In this document: positions 7,365 through 21,442 of the stretch, one piece after another
Numbering within the stretch: position 1 is the first letter of the stretch
How the letters are laid out: each line of letters starts with the position of its first letter
Program-made: the position numbers and the translations under genes
From: a virus
Reading direction: 5' to 3' (one strand)
Virus record (IMG/VR): IMGVR_UViG_3300007533_000211
Location: 1 to 22,495 of that record
DNA length: 22,495 bases
The notes under the pieces: generated by a model
Told to the model about the DNA's origin: nothing
Database searches by the model: none
Seen by the model: only the letters and a program-made list of their open reading frames with translations

Positions 7365-10202
7365 ATGAGCTACGTCATCAGCGCAGCCGGCCGGGGCGCA
7401 TACCTCGCCTCTGGCCTCCCGGCATCCGCCGGGCAGACCGCGGCGTTCACCGTCGCTGCGTGGACGAAGATCGTCACCGACCGGGTCGGTCAGTGGCGCT
7501 ACCACATCGAGCTCGGCAGCGCGCTCACGAACGCCCCGCAGTACATCAACGCCGGATGGCGCGCCGATGGCTCGGGGCTCACCTATGAGGCCAATTCCTC
7601 CTTCTACGACCCGCTCAACCCGGGCAACCCACCCGTCGACGCCTCATGGTTCTATCACTACCTGCGCTGCGATGGCGCCGGCAGCCTCGAGGAAGGATGG
7701 TGGGATAGCGCAAACGGCGTATGGGTGCAGGGCACCACCACGATCGGAGGGGACATCAGTCTGGCCTGCCTGACGTTCGGCAGCGACAGCTACAGCGAGT
7801 GGATCAACGGCAAGATGCAGGGCGGGCGCATGTGGAGCGCCTACCTGAGCGACGCGCAGCTCGAGGCCGAGAAGGACGCCACCGCGGCCGTCACGACCGC
7901 CGGACTCGTGATCGACGCGCCGCTCGACACGGACGGCACCGATGCATCCGGCAACGGCAACGACCTCACCATCGCCTCCGGCACCTTCGACCCGGCGGAT
8001 TCCGCGCCACCGTGGAACGCCCCGAGCGGCACGGACGTCTCCATCGGCACGGCCACCGAGACCGAGACCGCCAAGCCCATCGGCGTGACGCTCGGGACCA
8101 CGGCCGTGCACGTCGAGTTCGGCCAGCAGGGCGACGCAGACAGCACCTACGACCTCTCCGGCGACGGCACCGGCCCGTGGGCGCTGGTCAACGCCCCGGC
8201 CAGCATGAGCGTGAGCGGCAGCACGCTCACGTTCTCCCACGCGACCCCGGTGCACGAGCGCGCCGTTCTCGAGGACAGCACCGGCCAGCGCGTGGCCGTC
8301 TGGCACTCGACGCGCCCGAGCACCGCGCCGCAGTACCCACTGAGCGTCTCCGGCGATCGGCGCTACATCACGGACGCGGGCGGCCACTGTTCCGCGTGGA
8401 ACGGCGATGCGGCGTGGAGTGCGGCGGTCAACCTTTCGCAGGCCGGCATGACCACATACCTCGCCGACCGGGCGGGGCGCGGCGTCAACGCCATCTACGT
8501 CAACGCCATCGAGCACGCATTCAGCGACCAGAGCCCGCGCTACCTGAACAAGAACGGCGACGCCCCGTTCACCACGATGACGGACTGGACCGCGCCGAAC
8601 GAGCCCTACTGGCAGCTCGTCGACTGGCTGGTGCGCGAGGCCCACCGCTACGGCATCACCGTGATGCTGTTCCCCGCATACGTCGGCTACGGCATGGGAT
8701 CCGAGGGATGGGCCGCGGAGATGGACGCGGCCGCGGCCGCCGACTTCACCACCTACGGGGATTTCCTCGGCAGCCGCTACGCCAGCTACCCGAACGTGGC
8801 GTGGGCGATGGGCGGCGACAGCCCCCCGACCGGCACCTACGACCTCACGACGAAGATCAACAACCTCGCCACCGCGATCAAGGCGGCCGCCCCGGATCAC
8901 CTCATCACCGCGCACTCGCAGCGCGGATCCTCGTCGATCGACAGCTACAACGAGACGTGGCTGGACCTGAATGCGACCTACGCGAGCCTGTCTACCGTGG
9001 CGGCCGAGACCGCGACCTCGTGGGCGCAGGATCCCACCGGCGCCGCGACGGCGATGCCCACGTTCCTGATCGAGTCCACCTACGGCAACGAGGCAAACAG
9101 CGCGCCCGAGGACATCCCGAAACAGGCGCTGGAGACCTTGATGCAGGGCGCCTGCGGGCACTTCGCCGGCTCCGACCCGACGTGGTACTTCGGCGTCGAC
9201 GCCTCGAGCCCCGCGAACAGCTTCGCCGACACCGGCGGCCTCGACTGGCACAACACGCTCGATCAGTTCGGCGCGCAGTATTTCCAGACGATCGCGGACC
9301 TGATCGACGCGCGCGACATCCCCACGCTCACCCCCGACCATGCGCACGCCGTGGTCACCGCAGGCGGGACATGGTGGGCGCGCGCCAGCGCGCAGGTGCT
9401 GGTGGCCTACACCACCACCGCGACCGACCTCACGATCGACCGCACGGCCTTGTCGGCGGGCACCTACAACGTAAATTGGTACAGCCCGACCACCGGCACC
9501 GTGACCAGCGAGGCCCCGCAGACGATGGGCTCGGGCAGCGTCGCGCTCACCCCGCCGGACGCGAACGGCTGGATCCTTCTGGTCGACGACCAAGCCCTCG
9601 GCCTGTCGGTGCCCGGGGCCACGCCCGTCGAGGCATCCATCGCGCCCGCCTACGAGACCGAGGCGGCGCGCGTAATCGTCGCACGGACCCCGACCACGGT
9701 CCCCATAGGGACTGCGACCGAAACGGAGCTGGCGCGGGCCGTGACGGCCTCCACCGCGGTATCCGCGGCCATCGGGCAGGCGGTCGAGACCGAGATCGCC
9801 CGCGTCGTGTCGGCCGGGTCGGCAATCAACGTATTGATCGGGCAGGCGGTCGAGACCGAAACGGCCGCGCCGATGACGGTTCGAATCCCGCTGTCGGTCT
9901 CCATCGGGCAGGCGGTCGAGCTCGAGCAGGCCCGGGCCGTCGTCGCCGGCGTCGATCGCAGCGCGGCCCTGCGCACCGCCATCGAGACCGAGGTGGCGCG
10001 ATCGATCACGCCGCAGATCATCGGCCCGATCAACGTCCCCATCGGGCGGGCGACGGAGACCGAGCACGCGCGCGCATTCCAGATCGACGTGGTACGGGTG
10101 ATTCTGGCCGGACTCACGATCGAGCCGGCCCTCGGGGCCACATTCAGCGTCGGCGCGCAGCTCGAGATCACGCTCTCGCTGCAGCCGCACAAGGGAGAGT
10201 GA
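7365..10202 (+). CDS. LamG + DUF4038 apiosidase-like tail protein with C-terminal repeats
   Basis: 945 residues, ATG after GCGAGG. Residues 1-220 form a LamG-like sandwich ('AAFTVAAWTKI', 'GGRMWSAYLSDAQLEAEKD', 'LDTDGTDASGNGNDL'). Residues about 320-660 resemble the DUF4038 TIM barrel: 'YLADRAGRGVNAIYVNAI', 'YWQLVDWLVREAHRYGITVML', 'YPNVAWAMGGD', 'FLIESTYGNEANSAPEDI', 'GACGHFAGSDPTWYFG'. In characterised apiosidases (GH140) the catalytic pair is Asp/Glu; here the Asp of 'MGGD' and the Glu of 'LIES' are the natural candidates. Residues about 665-745 match the putative collagen-binding domain usually following DUF4038 ('YNVNWYSPTTGTV...GWILLVDD'). Residues 750-930 are tandem 'IG.A.ETE.AR' repeats. 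I infer a virion-borne glycan depolymerase; the substrate is unknown. Confidence 0.78.
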   Translation: MSYVISAAGRGAYLASGLPASAGQTAAFTVAAWTKIVTDRVGQWRYHIELGSALTNAPQYINAGWRADGSGLTYEANSSFYDPLNPGNPPVDASWFYHYLRCDGAGSLEEGWWDSANGVWVQGTTTIGGDISLACLTFGSDSYSEWINGKMQGGRMWSAYLSDAQLEAEKDATAAVTTAGLVIDAPLDTDGTDASGNGNDLTIASGTFDPADSAPPWNAPSGTDVSIGTATETETAKPIGVTLGTTAVHVEFGQQGDADSTYDLSGDGTGPWALVNAPASMSVSGSTLTFSHATPVHERAVLEDSTGQRVAVWHSTRPSTAPQYPLSVSGDRRYITDAGGHCSAWNGDAAWSAAVNLSQAGMTTYLADRAGRGVNAIYVNAIEHAFSDQSPRYLNKNGDAPFTTMTDWTAPNEPYWQLVDWLVREAHRYGITVMLFPAYVGYGMGSEGWAAEMDAAAAADFTTYGDFLGSRYASYPNVAWAMGGDSPPTGTYDLTTKINNLATAIKAAAPDHLITAHSQRGSSSIDSYNETWLDLNATYASLSTVAAETATSWAQDPTGAATAMPTFLIESTYGNEANSAPEDIPKQALETLMQGACGHFAGSDPTWYFGVDASSPANSFADTGGLDWHNTLDQFGAQYFQTIADLIDARDIPTLTPDHAHAVVTAGGTWWARASAQVLVAYTTTATDLTIDRTALSAGTYNVNWYSPTTGTVTSEAPQTMGSGSVALTPPDANGWILLVDDQALGLSVPGATPVEASIAPAYETEAARVIVARTPTTVPIGTATETELARAVTASTAVSAAIGQAVETEIARVVSAGSAINVLIGQAVETETAAPMTVRIPLSVSIGQAVELEQARAVVAGVDRSAALRTAIETEVARSITPQIIGPINVPIGRATETEHARAFQIDVVRVILAGLTIEPALGATFSVGAQLEITLSLQPHKGE
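9630..10110 (+). repeat. Tandem ~22-residue 'IGQAVETE' repeats at the end of the depolymerase-like protein
   Basis: About seven degenerate units of 22-24 residues follow the pattern 'v.IG.A.ETE.AR.v..'. At DNA level an 18-bp block starting ATCGGGCAGG recurs exactly at 9771, 9837 and 9903, i.e. at a 66-bp (22-codon) period. A further unit ('IGTATETETAKPIG') sits near 8040, between the LamG and DUF4038 domains, so the motif is used both as linker and as tail. The near-identity of three central copies suggests recent unequal recombination. Confidence 0.8.
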
Positions 10203-14118: not shown

Positions 14119-14243
14119 GGCTTCCCCCTTCGGAAGTGAGCGGTCGCCCATCGACCGCAGCGACAGTACAGCATAAGGGCGCCTTGCTTACAACTAGAAT
14201 TTGCCGCATGATCCTCCCCGGGCACACGACAAAGGGCACGAGG
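14119..14243 (-). promoter_or_regulatory. Divergent early control region with inverted repeats
   Basis: These 125 bp separate the leftward recombination operon and the rightward replication operon. A 7-bp inverted repeat GCGGTCG/CGACCGC (5-nt spacer) lies at 14140-14158. A second dyad, TAAG-N9-CTTA, lies near 14174-14190. The segment around 14163-14203 is the least GC-rich part. This is where Cro/CI-type operators would be expected, and the adjacent Cro/YdaS-like gene is the obvious candidate binder. No CI-type repressor gene is present on either side in this window. Confidence 0.55.
14165..14193 (-). promoter_or_regulatory. Candidate sigma70-like promoter for the leftward operon
   Basis: On the minus strand TTGTAA (plus 14188-14193) and TGTACT (plus 14165-14170) are separated by 17 bp, and a TGn extended -10 element precedes TGTACT. 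Each hexamer matches consensus at 4 of 6 positions. Transcription would begin near 14158, right at the inverted repeat 14140-14158, which would suit repressor control. This is prediction by eye only. Confidence 0.35.
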
Positions 14244-14537
14244 ATGCCGAAACCACCGAAGATCCCGGCACGCTACAACACCCCGCCGGAGATGCAGGAA
14301 GTGTTCGACGAGATCGTCGCGGCGGTCGCCCCGCCGGATGGTGACGGCGGGATTTCCAAGCTCGCCGAGCACTTCAACGTCTCGTCGCAGGCCGTCGCCA
14401 AATGGCGCGTCGACGGGCTTCCGGGCTATCGAGCGATGGACGTCGCCGAGCTGACCGGGATCCCGATCGAGCGCATCTTCGTCGCGGTGCGCAAACCCGA
14501 GCACATTGGGCGCCGCAGGAAATCGGATGCGGCCTGA
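14244..14537 (+). CDS. Cro/YdaS-like helix-turn-helix regulator
   Basis: 97 residues. The ATG at 14244 is preceded by AAAGGGCACGAGG; an in-frame ATG at 14208 has no ribosome binding site. Residues about 37-56 ('ISKLAEHFNVSSQAVAKWRV') form a helix-turn-helix, and 'GLPGYRAMDVAELTGIPIERIF' follows as in YdaS/Cro-like DNA-binding proteins, where the segment recognises the 'V..WR..G.P..R...IE..TG' pattern. It is the first gene of the rightward operon, facing the divergent control region, so the role is probably Cro-like repression of early promoters or a YdaS-type antitoxin-like regulator. The stop overlaps the ATG of the initiator gene (TGATG). Confidence 0.8.
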   Translation: MPKPPKIPARYNTPPEMQEVFDEIVAAVAPPDGDGGISKLAEHFNVSSQAVAKWRVDGLPGYRAMDVAELTGIPIERIFVAVRKPEHIGRRRKSDAA

Positions 14538-15487
14538 TGGATCTGGCAGGGGCGCTGGCGAAGATCGTGGACGCAGACATCGGGGGCAACGCCCGGCGCT
14601 TGGCCGAGGCGGTGCTGCTCTCGAACATGCGAGGTGAGAGACCAACAGGGAGGGCAATCGGGCTGCGGTTCGGCTGGTCCAAGCACACAACCAGCCGGGC
14701 CGTCCGGCAACTGGAACAGGCCGGATTGGTCGAACGGGACAGCCAGCGGAGCGGGCTGGCGCTCGAGCTGATAGGGCATGAGGTTGCGAAAATCGCAACC
14801 TCGGGCGCAGAACAGGGGCATGAGGTTGCGAAAATCGCAACCTCGGGCGCAGAACAGGGGCATGAGGTTGCGAAAATCGCAACCTCGGGCGCAGAACAGG
14901 GGCATGAGGTTGCGAAAATCGCAACCTCGGAAGGTTCGGAGGGGCATGAGGTAGCGAAAATCGCAACCTCGACCACTGAGGTTGCGAAAATCGCAACCTC
15001 GTGCCTAGAGAGAGAGAGTAGTAGTAATACAGATATAGATAATCTCTCTCTCGCGCACGCGCGCGTGGACGGGGCCCGGTGCCGAAAGCTGCTGGAAGGG
15101 GCCGGGCACACGTGGCACGAGATCATGCGAGGCAGCACCGGCCGCATGATCGCCGAATGGATCGAGGCCGGTGCGACCGAGGCCGACGTCAAGAACGGGA
15201 TCGCACTGGCACGCCAGACGAACCGAGGCAAGCCGGACAGCCCGGCCTACTACCGATGGGCGATCCGCGAGGCGATCAAGCAAAGAAAAGCCCCGGATGG
15301 GGCCGGGGCTTCAGGGGTAGGGAACGGGCGCCCGGGGGAACAGGCACCTACGGAGAATATACATGGGCTCGACGACAAAGACTATACCCGAGGCGCTACG
15401 GGGCCTCGTGGATGGCTCGCGCAAGCTGCCACCGGCACCGGATTACCGGGAATGGACCCGGCAGATGGAAGCGGAGAGTCGGAGTGA
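14537..15487 (+). CDS. Replication initiator with iterons in its own gene
   Basis: 316 residues, translationally coupled to the regulator upstream. Residues 18-78 form a winged helix-turn-helix ('RPTGRAIGLRFGWSKHTTSRAVRQLEQAGLVER'). Residues 82-155 are six copies of 'EVAKIATS', the translation of palindromic iterons. Residues about 170-255 are a helical domain ('CRKLLEGAGHTWHEIM', 'IAEWIEAGATEADVKNGIALARQ', 'AYYRWAIREAIKQ') reminiscent of DnaD-like or other initiator C-termini, and the remainder is Gly-rich and probably disordered. The layout (N-terminal DNA-binding domain, iterons mid-gene, loader gene next) parallels lambda O with ori inside O, although I see no clear sequence homology to O. 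The last 125 bp overlap the DnaC-like gene in another frame. Confidence 0.78.
   Translation: MDLAGALAKIVDADIGGNARRLAEAVLLSNMRGERPTGRAIGLRFGWSKHTTSRAVRQLEQAGLVERDSQRSGLALELIGHEVAKIATSGAEQGHEVAKIATSGAEQGHEVAKIATSGAEQGHEVAKIATSEGSEGHEVAKIATSTTEVAKIATSCLERESSSNTDIDNLSLAHARVDGARCRKLLEGAGHTWHEIMRGSTGRMIAEWIEAGATEADVKNGIALARQTNRGKPDSPAYYRWAIREAIKQRKAPDGAGASGVGNGRPGEQAPTENIHGLDDKDYTRGATGPRGWLAQAATGTGLPGMDPADGSGESE
14780..15000 (+). repeat. Six palindromic iterons, putative origin of replication
   Basis: A 23-bp element (left arm GAGGTTGCGA, spacer AAA, right arm its exact reverse complement) occurs at 14780-14802, 14822-14844, 14864-14886, 14906-14928, 14948-14970 and 14978-15000. Copy five has one mismatch in the left arm. 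Copies one to five are spaced exactly 42 bp, about four helical turns, so they face the same side of the helix; the last step is 30 bp. The 19-bp linkers between copies one to four are identical. All steps are multiples of three, keeping the initiator frame open. An AT-rich island follows directly. Confidence 0.88.
15007..15052 (+). other. AT-rich island next to the iterons, candidate DNA unwinding element
   Basis: In otherwise very GC-rich DNA, 15019-15042 is about 79% A+T (19 of 24). It is flanked by (AG)6 at 15007-15018 and (TC)5 at 15043-15052, which are mutually complementary and could form a 10-bp stem enclosing the AT-rich loop. Its position just beyond the last iteron matches the ordering of iterons and unwinding element in the lambda origin. 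It is translated within the initiator as a Ser/Asn/Asp-rich linker. Confidence 0.7.
15284..15311 (-). terminator. Leftward intrinsic terminator inside the initiator gene
   Basis: AAGCCCCGG (15288-15296) and CCGGGGCTT (15303-15311) make a perfect 9-bp stem with a 6-nt loop. On the minus strand the stem is followed by TTTT-C-TTT counting the closing bases (down to 15282), a good U-tract. On the plus strand only CAGGGG follows. It therefore should terminate leftward (antisense) transcription about 230 bp before the AT-rich island, or end a small antisense RNA. It is wholly inside the plus-strand initiator coding region. Confidence 0.65.
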
Positions 15488-16118
15488 GGCGCGCCAGATG
15501 GCGCGGGACAACCGCGAGCGGTATCGGCGAAAGCGGCTCGAGGAACAGTTCGGCCATGCCGGGATCCCGCCACGGTTCCACGAGCGCGGCTTCGACAACT
15601 ACCGGGCCGTCTCGACGGAGCAGTACCGCGTGCTCCAGACCTGCAAGGCATACGCCGAGCGGTTCGACGAGGCGCAGAAGCTCGGCTCGAGCCTGATCCT
15701 CATCGGGCGCCCCGGTACGGGCAAGACGCACCTCGCCTGCGCGATCGCGCGCGTGGTCATCGAGCACGGGCACTCGGCGCTATTCACGAGCGTGGCCGAG
15801 ATGCTGCGCCAGACGCGCGACAGCTTCCGCGGCGAGGAAACGGAGCAGAAGATCCTGCAGCGGTTCACCGAGCCCGACCTGCTCATCCTCGACGAGGTGG
15901 GTATCGGCATCGGGCGCGAGGAAACGCGACACGCGATCATCATGGACGTGATCAACCGGCGCTACGAGCACCTGCGCCCGACCATCCTCATGGGGAACCT
16001 TTCGACGCAGGAGATGCAGGCCTACCTCGGCGAGCGAGTCTGGCGCCGGATCAGCGAGGACGGGGCCGGCGTGCTGGCCTTCACATGGGACCGGCAGAAT
16101 GCCGGCAAGGGGGACTAG
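15363..16118 (+). CDS. DnaC-like AAA+ helicase loader
   Basis: 251 residues; ATG with CGGAG 8 bp upstream, overlapping the initiator gene by 125 bp. Residues 115-122 are Walker A ('GRPGTGKT') and 173-178 Walker B ('LLILDE'), with 'FTSVAEMLRQTRDSF' between, 'GNLS' at 211-214 as sensor I and 'RRISEDG' at 228-234 holding the likely arginine finger region. This is the order in DnaC/IstB-type ATPases. Residues 1-80 are a charged helical N-terminus without the Cys cluster seen in some loaders. It should load the host replicative helicase at the adjacent origin in concert with the initiator. IstB from a transposon is excluded by lack of an IstA transposase. Confidence 0.92.
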   Translation: MGSTTKTIPEALRGLVDGSRKLPPAPDYREWTRQMEAESRSEARQMARDNRERYRRKRLEEQFGHAGIPPRFHERGFDNYRAVSTEQYRVLQTCKAYAERFDEAQKLGSSLILIGRPGTGKTHLACAIARVVIEHGHSALFTSVAEMLRQTRDSFRGEETEQKILQRFTEPDLLILDEVGIGIGREETRHAIIMDVINRRYEHLRPTILMGNLSTQEMQAYLGERVWRRISEDGAGVLAFTWDRQNAGKGD

Positions 16119-17249: not shown

Positions 17250-17800
17250 TGCCGCGGGCGAGCAAGCGGAATGTGGCGGGGCGGCGCAAGCCCCGCCACA
17301 TCGAGGAACAGCACCTGCGGGCGTACTTCTCGAAGGCGCAGATGCTGTGGATCCAAGGCGACGACCTCGAGCCCGACGCGCGCCTGTCCGATTACGCCTA
17401 TCACCCCCCGATGGGCGGGAAGCGCGATCGCTTCGAGGCGCACAACCTGCGCCGGCAGGGCGCCAAGGCCGGCGTGTCCGACATCCACGTCCCGATCGCC
17501 CGGCTCGACGGCAATTCCCTGTGGATCGAGCTCAAGGCCGAGTACCGCGCGATCAAGGCGGACGGGCTCCCGGGCCGGCTGATTCGCACGAAACCGACGT
17601 CAGAGCAGGTCGCGTGGCTCGAGCGGATGAGTCGCGGCGGCCACTGGACGGCAATGGCGTGGTCGTGGGAGGCGGCAATCGACCTCACGATGGCGTATAT
17701 TTCCGGGCAACGGCAACGCATGGTTGCCGTTGAACAAACAGGGTACGCTACCGTATGCCAACCCGGGGGGCCGGAGACATGGCGCTCATCGATGAGCTGA
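17249..17800 (+). CDS. VRR-NUC domain nuclease
   Basis: 183 residues, ATG overlapping the previous stop. The PD-(D/E)XK core of VRR-NUC proteins is visible: 'HNLRRQGAKAGVSDIHVPIARLDGNSLWIELKAE', with Asp78 and Glu94-Leu-Lys96 as catalytic residues, then 'SEQVAWLERMSRGGHWTAMAWSWEAAIDLTMAYI', the conserved C-terminal Gln/Trp region. Stand-alone phage VRR-NUC proteins are thought to be structure-specific (Holliday-junction or flap) nucleases used in replication and packaging. The last ~20 residues lie beyond the domain and overlap the Mor-like gene. The gene carries a 12-bp perfect hairpin near its 5' end and a 10-bp inverted repeat near its 3' end. Confidence 0.88.
   Translation: MPRASKRNVAGRRKPRHIEEQHLRAYFSKAQMLWIQGDDLEPDARLSDYAYHPPMGGKRDRFEAHNLRRQGAKAGVSDIHVPIARLDGNSLWIELKAEYRAIKADGLPGRLIRTKPTSEQVAWLERMSRGGHWTAMAWSWEAAIDLTMAYISGQRQRMVAVEQTGYATVCQPGGPETWRSSMS
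17271..17301 (+). repeat. Perfect 12-bp inverted repeat near the start of the VRR-NUC gene
   Basis: ATGTGGCGGGGC (17271-17282) is followed after 7 bp by its exact reverse complement (17290-17301). In RNA this is a very stable 12-bp hairpin, 22 bp past the start codon, covering codons 8-18. Neither strand has a following T-run. It could be an mRNA stability or processing element, a translational brake, or a dyad binding site. Confidence 0.6.
17708..17732 (+). promoter_or_regulatory. 10-bp inverted repeat upstream of the Mor-like gene, candidate operator
   Basis: CAACGGCAAC and GTTGCCGTTG flank a 5-bp centre (GCATG), a perfect dyad ending 46 bp before the Mor-like ATG. A possible -35 (TTGAAC, 17730-17735) overlaps its right arm, with a weak -10-like TATGCC 18 bp downstream. 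A repressor on the dyad could block that promoter. The dyad lies in the 3' coding end of the VRR-NUC gene. Alternatively it is an RNA hairpin that tunes expression of the activator. Confidence 0.5.
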
Positions 17801-18144
17801 CAGACCTGATCGGACACCAGAACGCAATCGAAATCGTCCGTGGATGGGGCGGGAGACGCCTGTCCATTCCATCGACCATCCCTGACCACCACCCCATCAC
17901 CTACAAGATCGGGCGCGACGCGGCCGACCTGCTCTCACACCACTACGGCGGCACCGAAATCGAGCTGCCGGTCGAGAGAAGCGCCCTGATTCGCCAGCGC
18001 GACAAGGGCATATACGACGACATGAAGCGCGGCGTCAGCGCGCGCAAGGTCGCCGAGATCTACGGCATCACCTCCCGCCACGCGCGGTTCGTATACACCC
18101 GCGAATGCCGCAGGCGTGACCCCGGGGATAAATCTCCCCCATGA
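17779..18144 (+). CDS. Mor/C-family transcription activator, putative late-gene switch
   Basis: 121 residues from the ATG at 17779, with GGGGGG 8 bp upstream; an in-frame ATG at 17755 is possible. The order matches the Mor family: N-terminal dimerisation helices ('ELTDLIGHQNAIEIVRGWGGRRLSIPS'), 'DHHPITYKIGRDAADLLSHHYGGTEIELPV', a basic helix and a C-terminal helix-turn-helix ('MKRGVSARKVAEIYGITSRHARFVYTRE', about 82-109). In phage Mu, Mor activates middle and C activates late promoters by binding dyads near -45 and contacting RNA polymerase. Here the gene is the last before lysis and packaging genes, so it is probably the late activator. It overlaps the VRR-NUC gene by 22 bp. Confidence 0.88.
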   Translation: MALIDELTDLIGHQNAIEIVRGWGGRRLSIPSTIPDHHPITYKIGRDAADLLSHHYGGTEIELPVERSALIRQRDKGIYDDMKRGVSARKVAEIYGITSRHARFVYTRECRRRDPGDKSPP

Positions 18145-19756: not shown

Positions 19757-20120
19757 AGCCCTCATCTACGCGCTCATGCTGGTCAGCGGCGGCCTCGGCG
19801 GGGCGGCGATCGCCAGCCGGCGCGTGCTCCGGCACAAGAGCGTGTCGTGCATGATGGTCGTGGCCTACGTGATCATCGGAGCGGCCTCCGGCAGCATGGT
19901 GTGGGCCGCGGCGATCATCTTCGGCCTCGACCAGCACCTCGACACCCTCGCCCTGCTCGGCTTCTCGACGTTCACCGGCGGGGCCTTCGCGGTCGTGCTC
20001 GGCGCCACGCAGGGCGGCATCACGCTCATCGCCGAGAAGCTCGGATGGCACTTCGAGTTCACCGTGAAGCGCGACGACCGGCCGAGCGACAAGCGCGAGC
20101 GCGAGGGGCAGAATCAGTGA
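19728..20120 (+). CDS. Second holin-like membrane protein
   Basis: 130 residues from the ATG at 19728, with GGGAAA about 10 bp upstream; the in-frame ATG at 19695 would add 11 residues but lacks a good site. Three hydrophobic segments: 'ALIYALMLVSGGLGGAAIA', 'SCMMVVAYVIIGAASGSMVWAAAIIFGL' and 'TLALLGFSTFTGGAFAVVLGATQGGITLIA', followed by a long charged cytoplasmic tail ('KRDDRPSDKREREGQNQ'). The overall form suits a LydA-type or other class I holin. With a similar protein encoded before Rz, one may be holin and the other antiholin or pinholin. The stop overlaps the GTG of the ParB-methyltransferase gene. Confidence 0.68.
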   Translation: MHDRILDLTEALIYALMLVSGGLGGAAIASRRVLRHKSVSCMMVVAYVIIGAASGSMVWAAAIIFGLDQHLDTLALLGFSTFTGGAFAVVLGATQGGITLIAEKLGWHFEFTVKRDDRPSDKREREGQNQ

Positions 20121-21442
20121 GCGATATGTGGGCCACCCGGATTGTCGAGGAAGGCACGGAAGCCCCCGACAACCTGCTCGCCAATCCCCGCAACTGGCGC
20201 GTCCACCCGAAGATCCAGCAAGACCGGCTCGAGGCACTGCTCGACCGCGTCGGATGGGTGCAGCGCGTGATCGTCAACCGCACGACCGGGCACATCGTCG
20301 ACGGCCACCTGCGCGTGTCGCTGGCAGCGCGGCGCGGCGACCCGAGCGTCCCCGTGGCCTACGTCGAGATGACCGAGGACGAGGAAGCGCTCGTGCTCGC
20401 CACCTTCGACCCCATCGCCGAGCTGGCCGGGCGCGATGCCGAGATCCTCGCCGACCTGATCAAGGACATCGAGGTCGACGATTCGCGGATCGACGAATTC
20501 CTGCTCGAGCTCGAGGGCGTGGACCCGAACAAGGTGGAGAAGCCCGGCCAGACCGACCCGGACGACGTGCCGGTCCCGGCGCTCACCCCATGCTGCCAGC
20601 CCGGGGAGCTGTGGCAGCTCGGCGACCATCGCCTCTACGTCGGGGATTCGCGCGCAGCATCGAGCTTCCGCACCCTCCTGCAGAGCCCGAATGAGCAGGA
20701 ACAGCCCGACGCGATCTGGACCGATCCGCCGTACAACGTCGCCTACACCGACTCGAGGGGCCGCACCATCCAGAACGACCAGATGGACACGGCGGCCTTC
20801 GTGCGATTCCTGCGCGACCTGTTCACGGCCGCGTTCTCGACCCTCAAGCCCGGCAGCGCGGTCTACGTCGCGCACGCCGACAGCGAGGGCGAGGCCTTCC
20901 GCCGGGCCATGCGCGAGTCCGGCGTCGAGGTGCGCCAGTGCCTGATCTGGATCAAGGACCGATTCACGATCGGGCGGCAGGACTACCAATGGCAGCACGA
21001 GCCGGTGCTCTACGGCTGGACGGAGGGAACGCACCGCTGGTACGCAGACCGCTCGCAGAGCACCGCACTCGACGAGGGCCGCGACATCGACAGCCTGCCG
21101 AAAGCGGAGCTGCTCGACCTCGTGCGCGGCATCCTCGAGCAGATCGAGCCGACCGTGCACCGCGAGGACAAGCCGAGTCGATCCGAGGCGCACCCGACCA
21201 TGAAGCCCGTGCGCCTCATCGCCCGGCACCTGAAGAACAGCACGAAGCGCGGAGACCTCGTGCTCGACCCCTGCGCGGGGAGCGGATCAACCCTGATCGC
21301 ATGCGAGCAGCTCGGGCGGCGGGCCCGCGTGATCGAGCTCGACCCGGTCTACGCCGACGTCATTATCCGGCGCTGGCAGACCTTCACGGACATGCAGGCC
21401 GAGCGAGTCGACGGCGCCCCGTGGCAAGATCCGAACGGTTGA
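20117..21442 (+). CDS. ParB-like + DNA methyltransferase fusion
   Basis: 441 residues from a GTG at 20117 that overlaps the previous stop and has GAGGGG 8 bp upstream. Residues about 15-115 are a ParB/Srx-type domain ('NPRNWRVHPKIQQDRLEALLDRVGW', 'TGHIVDGHLRVSLAARRGDPSVPVAYVEM'). Residues about 165-425 are an amino-methyltransferase: catalytic 'DPPY' at 203-206, a variable region at about 285-350, then the SAM-binding 'DPCAGSGST' at 384-392 and 'EAHPTMKPVRLIARHL'. DPPY before the SAM motif marks the beta/D21-like group, usually N6-adenine or N4-cytosine modifying. It probably protects phage DNA from host restriction or marks it. No partner restriction enzyme is present. Confidence 0.92.
   Translation: MSDMWATRIVEEGTEAPDNLLANPRNWRVHPKIQQDRLEALLDRVGWVQRVIVNRTTGHIVDGHLRVSLAARRGDPSVPVAYVEMTEDEEALVLATFDPIAELAGRDAEILADLIKDIEVDDSRIDEFLLELEGVDPNKVEKPGQTDPDDVPVPALTPCCQPGELWQLGDHRLYVGDSRAASSFRTLLQSPNEQEQPDAIWTDPPYNVAYTDSRGRTIQNDQMDTAAFVRFLRDLFTAAFSTLKPGSAVYVAHADSEGEAFRRAMRESGVEVRQCLIWIKDRFTIGRQDYQWQHEPVLYGWTEGTHRWYADRSQSTALDEGRDIDSLPKAELLDLVRGILEQIEPTVHREDKPSRSEAHPTMKPVRLIARHLKNSTKRGDLVLDPCAGSGSTLIACEQLGRRARVIELDPVYADVIIRRWQTFTDMQAERVDGAPWQDPNG

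Follow-up and report, generated by a model that had tools for sequence, protein, structure and literature searches.

The stretch of viral DNA analyzed here (the window; 22,495 bases, 67% G+C) comes from a virus record that may be a fragment. Three plus-strand genes lie one after another in it, encoding a small helix-turn-helix (HTH) protein, a winged-HTH (wHTH) protein referred to below as the initiator, and a DnaC-like helicase loader. The TGA of the small HTH gene overlaps the ATG of the initiator gene (TGATG), and the loader gene overlaps the 3′ end of the initiator gene by 125 nt in a different frame. Six dyads are in frame within the initiator gene and are followed by an A+T-rich stretch (Table 1). 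Genes for an Erf-like annealing protein, a YqaJ exonuclease, and an SSB are found on the opposite strand. Elsewhere in the window, an apiosidase-like glycoside hydrolase domain (Pfam, 7e-48) is combined with a putative collagen-binding-type domain in a 945-aa protein encoded at 7365–10202 (+); this protein lies in the apparent tail region and is possibly a polysaccharide-degrading tail protein. A Mor-type transcription activator (Pfam, 2e-12) is encoded at 17755–18144 (+), as in Mu-like phages, here together with a probable lambda-type origin. An N6/N4-type DNA methylase (1.6e-26) is encoded at about 20120–21442 (+), and the stretch preceding it in the same frame appears ParB-like by eye.

Table 1. 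Positions of the genes, iterons, and candidate unwinding element at the locus
Feature	Position	Strand	Remarks
Small HTH protein, 97 aa, Cro/YdaS-like	14244..14537	+	Pfam YdaS_toxin 1.5e-5 and P22_Cro 1.2e-4, both under the curated cut-off
Putative replication initiator, 316 aa	14537..15487	+	Pfam MarR_2 2e-7; wHTH ~1–70, linker 82–154, C-terminal domain ~160–251
Iteron 1	14780..14802		Perfect 23-bp dyad
Iteron 2	14822..14844		Perfect dyad
Iteron 3	14864..14886		Perfect dyad
Iteron 4	14906..14928		Perfect dyad
Iteron 5	14948..14970		One left-arm mismatch, 14953 T to A, synonymous
Iteron 6	14978..15000		Perfect dyad
Candidate DNA unwinding element	15008..15052		(AG)n, A+T-rich core 15019–15043, (TC)n; inverted repeat
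DnaC-like helicase loader, 251 aa	15363..16118	+	PHROG 50 2.2e-62; IstB_IS21 5e-22

The initiator matched Pfam MarR_2 above the cut-off over residues 32–70; this is a general regulator family and not a replication family. A single-sequence structure model contained a confident winged HTH over approximately residues 1–65 (pLDDT 72–91 for residues 1–60) but was of low confidence past this domain, with no defined fold in the repeat region. Foldseek searches with the N-terminal model returned weak matches, none with E below 0.1, mostly to dimeric winged-helix repressors of the LexA, DtxR, and ArsR/MarR types, and comparison of the initiator with solved structures by sequence gave chance matches only. 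No match to Pfam Phage_rep_O (PF04492) was obtained at E values up to 1, nor was there a Pfam match to HTH_36 (PF13730) or DnaD, and O-like and DnaD-like initiators in PHROG gave weak matches (E about 0.01; 0.009 for DnaD-like). Judged by these profiles, the initiator is outside the Phage_rep_O and HTH_36 families. Its neighbor had been called a DnaC-like loader in the first-pass annotation, and the strong match to PHROG 50 bears this out; in an alignment with nine phage loaders its Walker A motif is conserved, as in an AAA+ loader.

The iteron array extends over 14780–15000. Its unit is a 23-bp dyad, GAGGTTGCGA-AAA-TCGCAACCTC, and the coordinates of successive dyads give the spacings of 42, 42, 42, 42, and 30 bp that had been claimed for them. 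All six dyads are present; five of them are perfect, in line with the text of the first-pass annotation but not with its title, which has six, and iteron 5 carries a single arm mismatch that changes GTT to GTA and leaves Val unchanged. Each dyad translates as EVAKIATS, linker residues 82–154 of the protein being iteron-encoded, and the proposal of in-frame repeats inside a wHTH protein was confirmed by translation, by the MarR_2 match, and by the structure model. The 19-bp linkers between the dyads had been described as identical, which holds for three of the five: linkers 1–3 are the same, 8 of the 19 positions are different in linker 4, and linker 5 has a length of 7 bp. Array units 1–3 are one exact tandem duplication, and the fourth spacing retains part of the duplicated unit. 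An antisense open frame of 285 aa (14374–15231, minus strand) passes through the array and, owing to the palindromic dyads, contains a repeat as well, EVAIFATS; this frame is probably a by-product of high G+C.

Dinucleotide-preserving shuffles of the 22.5-kb window contained 0 matches to the dyad. The half-site GAGGTTGC was absent outside the array when the whole window was searched, including the divergent control region at 14152–14243, so the array is not part of a spread-out operator set. A search for the dyad elsewhere had been proposed in the first-pass annotation; the exact dyad core had zero matches in viral contigs, the looser GGTTGCGANNNTCGCAACC gave single, unrelated matches in eight viral contigs, none of which is an array, and the dyad with a free center had no match in 398 genomes of one phylum. 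By these searches, the iteron sequence is previously unrecorded. Two genome matches to the repeat region proved to be unrelated repetitive proteins.

Comparison of 30-mers over the whole window places its A+T maximum immediately 3′ of the array, at about 15013–15051. The claimed 79% A+T stretch directly after the dyads is present, with a content of 80% over the core (15019–15043) and 64% over 15008–15052. Its flanks are complementary, as proposed, the (AG)n arm at 15008–15020 and the (TC)n arm at 15040–15052 being 92% complementary.

To place the array among related loci, a survey of 160 loci with related loaders was carried out, in which ∼1.3 kb upstream of the loader was searched for repeated palindromes; 149 loci had enough sequence. 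With an array called from at least three copies and with cut-offs of our own choosing, palindromic arrays were found upstream in 36 of 149 loci but in none of the 156 downstream controls or the 149 shuffles; the palindrome search misses direct-repeat origins, and the loci are partly non-independent, several having one iteron family in common. Repeated 12-mers of any kind in at least three copies were present upstream in 52 of 149 loci, downstream in 2 of 156, and after shuffling in 0 of 149. The window array had the top palindrome score in the survey (112; next 106). Flanks were analyzed for 38 palindromic arrays with a score of 20 or more, three loci having been removed by hand. Each of these arrays, like the window array, is confined to one open frame. 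In 38 of 39 cases (window included), the A+T content of the 60 bp 3′ of the array exceeds that of the surrounding DNA, the mean excess being +0.17 on the 3′ side versus +0.06 on the 5′ side. It is common for an initiator gene beside a DnaC-like loader to contain palindromic iterons. The dyads of the relatives are often short- and imperfect-armed. When 16 survey initiators were scanned, 11 matched Phage_rep_O and three matched HTH_36, with two giving no match; for many array-bearing relatives the Phage_rep_O match is strong. Just 3′ of the arrays at eight loci (L036, L052, L087, L134, L140, L141, L149, and L175) is an A-rich motif like ACACAAAAGACA, within what is likely the unwinding region. 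These relatives, which have Phage_rep_O initiators, have the motif in common despite their different iterons; the window is without it.

Close relatives of the initiator were not found at the usual thresholds in the viral contigs, genome contigs, and phage records searched, nor did the whole window have a near relative among phage records. A permissive phage search identified Pseudomonas phages AUS531phi, BR153a, and D14P, in which the protein in the same slot (the O slot) distantly resembles the C-terminal part of the initiator; one of the three has a gene annotated as replication protein P directly after this slot, and an alignment built on the AUS531phi group matched 37 further loci. Plasmid matches to the initiator were weak and were mostly IS91 transposases. 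The loader matched 704 phage records, and in the records that were opened the preceding gene was often annotated as "replication initiation protein," "replication protein," or "replication initiation O-like" and was otherwise hypothetical. At L110, 1159–2013, the gene ahead of the closest loader relative (50% identity) carries several copies of a repeat, AAGCAGTCCCAAAA, mostly 22 bp apart, which was not listed by the palindrome search.

In phage lambda, O binds inverted-repeat iterons located centrally in its own gene, beside an A+T-rich tract; lambda has four iterons and the Stx phages P27 and 933W have six, on the same origin plan (PMC7466680). In lambda, P22, and L, the coding region for the ori-binding protein apparently contains iterons that differ from phage to phage (PMC8022706). 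The window shares with lambda O/ori-lambda and with P27 and 933W the inverted-repeat iterons mid-initiator gene, the A+T-rich tract, and the adjacent loader gene, which upholds the earlier description of the locus as lambda O/ori-like in principle. The accompanying statement that the arrangement was not recognized from described origins does not stand, because palindromic intragenic iterons are common by DnaC-like loaders and the lambda iterons are themselves inverted repeats (PMC7466680). Differences from lambda are seen in the iterons, which there are about 19 bp and imperfect, compared with 23 bp, perfect 10-bp arms, and 42-bp spacing in the window; in the initiator, which is without a Phage_rep_O match; and in the loader, which is DnaC-like and not lambda P. 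Gene 18 of Salmonella phages P22 and L likewise has its own iteron set in the initiator coding region (PMC8022706), although the iteron sequences are others and a DnaB-type helicase gene (12) takes the place of the loader.

The replication protein of phage mEpX1 and its relatives (L020, L131, L134, and L138) have palindromic in-frame repeats ahead of a DnaC-like loader, as in the window; these repeats, TGTCTCGAAGTTAGAGACA, are read as VSKLET and are 24 bp apart, and the group differs from the window in having a Phage_rep_O initiator (L134) and dyads that are shorter and imperfect. Vibrio phage Baybae gp21 (L029) has dyads around TGTCGAAAACTTCGACA within a wHTH gene, but its initiator is of the HTH_36 type and its spacing is about 22 bp. 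Pseudomonas phage AUS531phi QGF21349 (L025) is a distant C-terminal homologue of the initiator (E 9e-6) with repeats within the gene; unlike those of the window, they are 11-bp direct repeats and not long dyads, and no adjacent DnaC-like gene is annotated.

The 14537–15487 locus is very probably a phage replication origin of the lambda O/ori type, at which the initiator would bind dyads in its own gene, the adjacent DNA would melt, and a helicase would be loaded. The proposal of an intragenic origin with an A+T-rich unwinding region is supported by the array in its open frame, by the A+T maximum, and by the layout seen in the survey. The wHTH domain of the initiator, probably dimeric, would bind each 23-bp dyad, and the dimeric binding unit per iteron that had been proposed is likely. 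A compact nucleoprotein complex would form as several bound dimers fold the DNA, straining the adjoining 15008–15052 region until the strands open. The C-terminal domain of the initiator and/or the DnaC-like loader (15363–16118) may then place host DnaB helicase on the exposed strands. Counting against the origin reading are the absence of close initiator relatives from the collections searched, the match of the initiator wHTH to MarR_2, the weakness of its PHROG matches to replication initiators, and the 42-bp spacing, which exceeds that usual in relatives (18–24 bp). Because lambda, P22, L, and the Stx phages have been described with intragenic iterons (PMC8022706, PMC7466680), the origin belongs to a known kind and is not a new type.

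A different view of the same features is that the locus represents a separate, undescribed initiator family, with a MarR-like wHTH, a C-terminal domain confined to few Pseudomonas phages, and long perfect dyads four turns apart; we consider this unlikely. If true, the geometry of the complex would be unlike that of the lambda O-some, with most dimers on one DNA face and with wider gaps. Helical phasing, which had been claimed for the dyads, is possible, but the argument for it is weak. The 42-bp spacing does equal four turns at 10.5 bp, the last spacing of 30 bp being 2.86 turns. Against designed phasing, the 42-bp spacings within units 1–3 are not independent, these units being one duplication that accounts for most of the equal spacings, and the spacings of the relatives, usually 18–24 bp, cluster at 22–24 bp, which is no exact number of turns. 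The periodicity of the relatives' spacings is moderate and much the same for all periods from 10 to 11.5 bp (resultant 0.34–0.45), and on average these spacings lie 1.8 bp off whole turns.

It is distinctly improbable that the dyads are intragenic operators serving to repress or time transcription, and not to start replication, when bound by the Cro/YdaS-like protein encoded upstream or by the initiator-like wHTH protein itself. MarR-type wHTH proteins and small HTH proteins are frequent dimeric palindrome binders, and the Foldseek matches of the N-terminal domain are to dimeric repressors, all of them weak (E 0.1 or worse). The array, however, is mid-gene and away from a promoter, neither a dyad copy nor the half-site occurs in 14152–14243 or elsewhere in the window, and the array occupies the position that repeats have in the initiator genes of many phages. 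A search at the array revealed no sigma-70-like promoter. Autoregulation could accompany the origin role.

We see very little likelihood that the EVAKIATS units matter as protein, as a flexible or interacting linker, with the DNA palindrome as a by-product. Such a role would suit spacings that are all multiples of three and a peptide that is identical in six copies. Given the peptide and the codon usage of the phage, a perfect dyad with 10-bp arms would arise with a probability of about 4%, and much of the symmetry is thus already present in the peptide. However, the dyads use codons that are rare in the phage (GTT 4%, AAA 7%, and GCA 9% of their amino acids), and these are retained in nearly every copy, and the repeat region is modeled with low confidence and has no defined fold. 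Copies 4–6 show 1 change in 69 dyad sites versus 8 in 19 in the changed linker (p = 9e-6), a test that is weaker if the copies were homogenized by recent duplication. In some Pseudomonas relatives, the dyads are 22 bp apart and one dyad is read in different frames, which shows that in those phages the DNA is kept and not the peptide; this argument cannot be carried over directly to the window, where all spacings are multiples of three. A role of the dyads as hairpins within the mRNA of the initiator, where they would slow translation or influence stability, can scarcely be credited: each dyad does fold as a 10-bp hairpin (−15.3 kcal/mol), but zero Rfam families were matched, and the often short, imperfect arms in relatives mean that strong hairpins are not a common feature.

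Particular to the window are an initiator without a Phage_rep_O or HTH_36 match and with distant relatives only, an unrecorded iteron, and a 42-bp unit. Palindromic iterons occur with at least three N-terminal classes (Phage_rep_O, HTH_36, and MarR_2-like), which suggests that the origin plan has been kept while proteins and sites were exchanged. As a clean, readily testable candidate for an intragenic origin with near-uniform sites, the locus would suit asking what number and spacing of dimers are needed for DNA opening.
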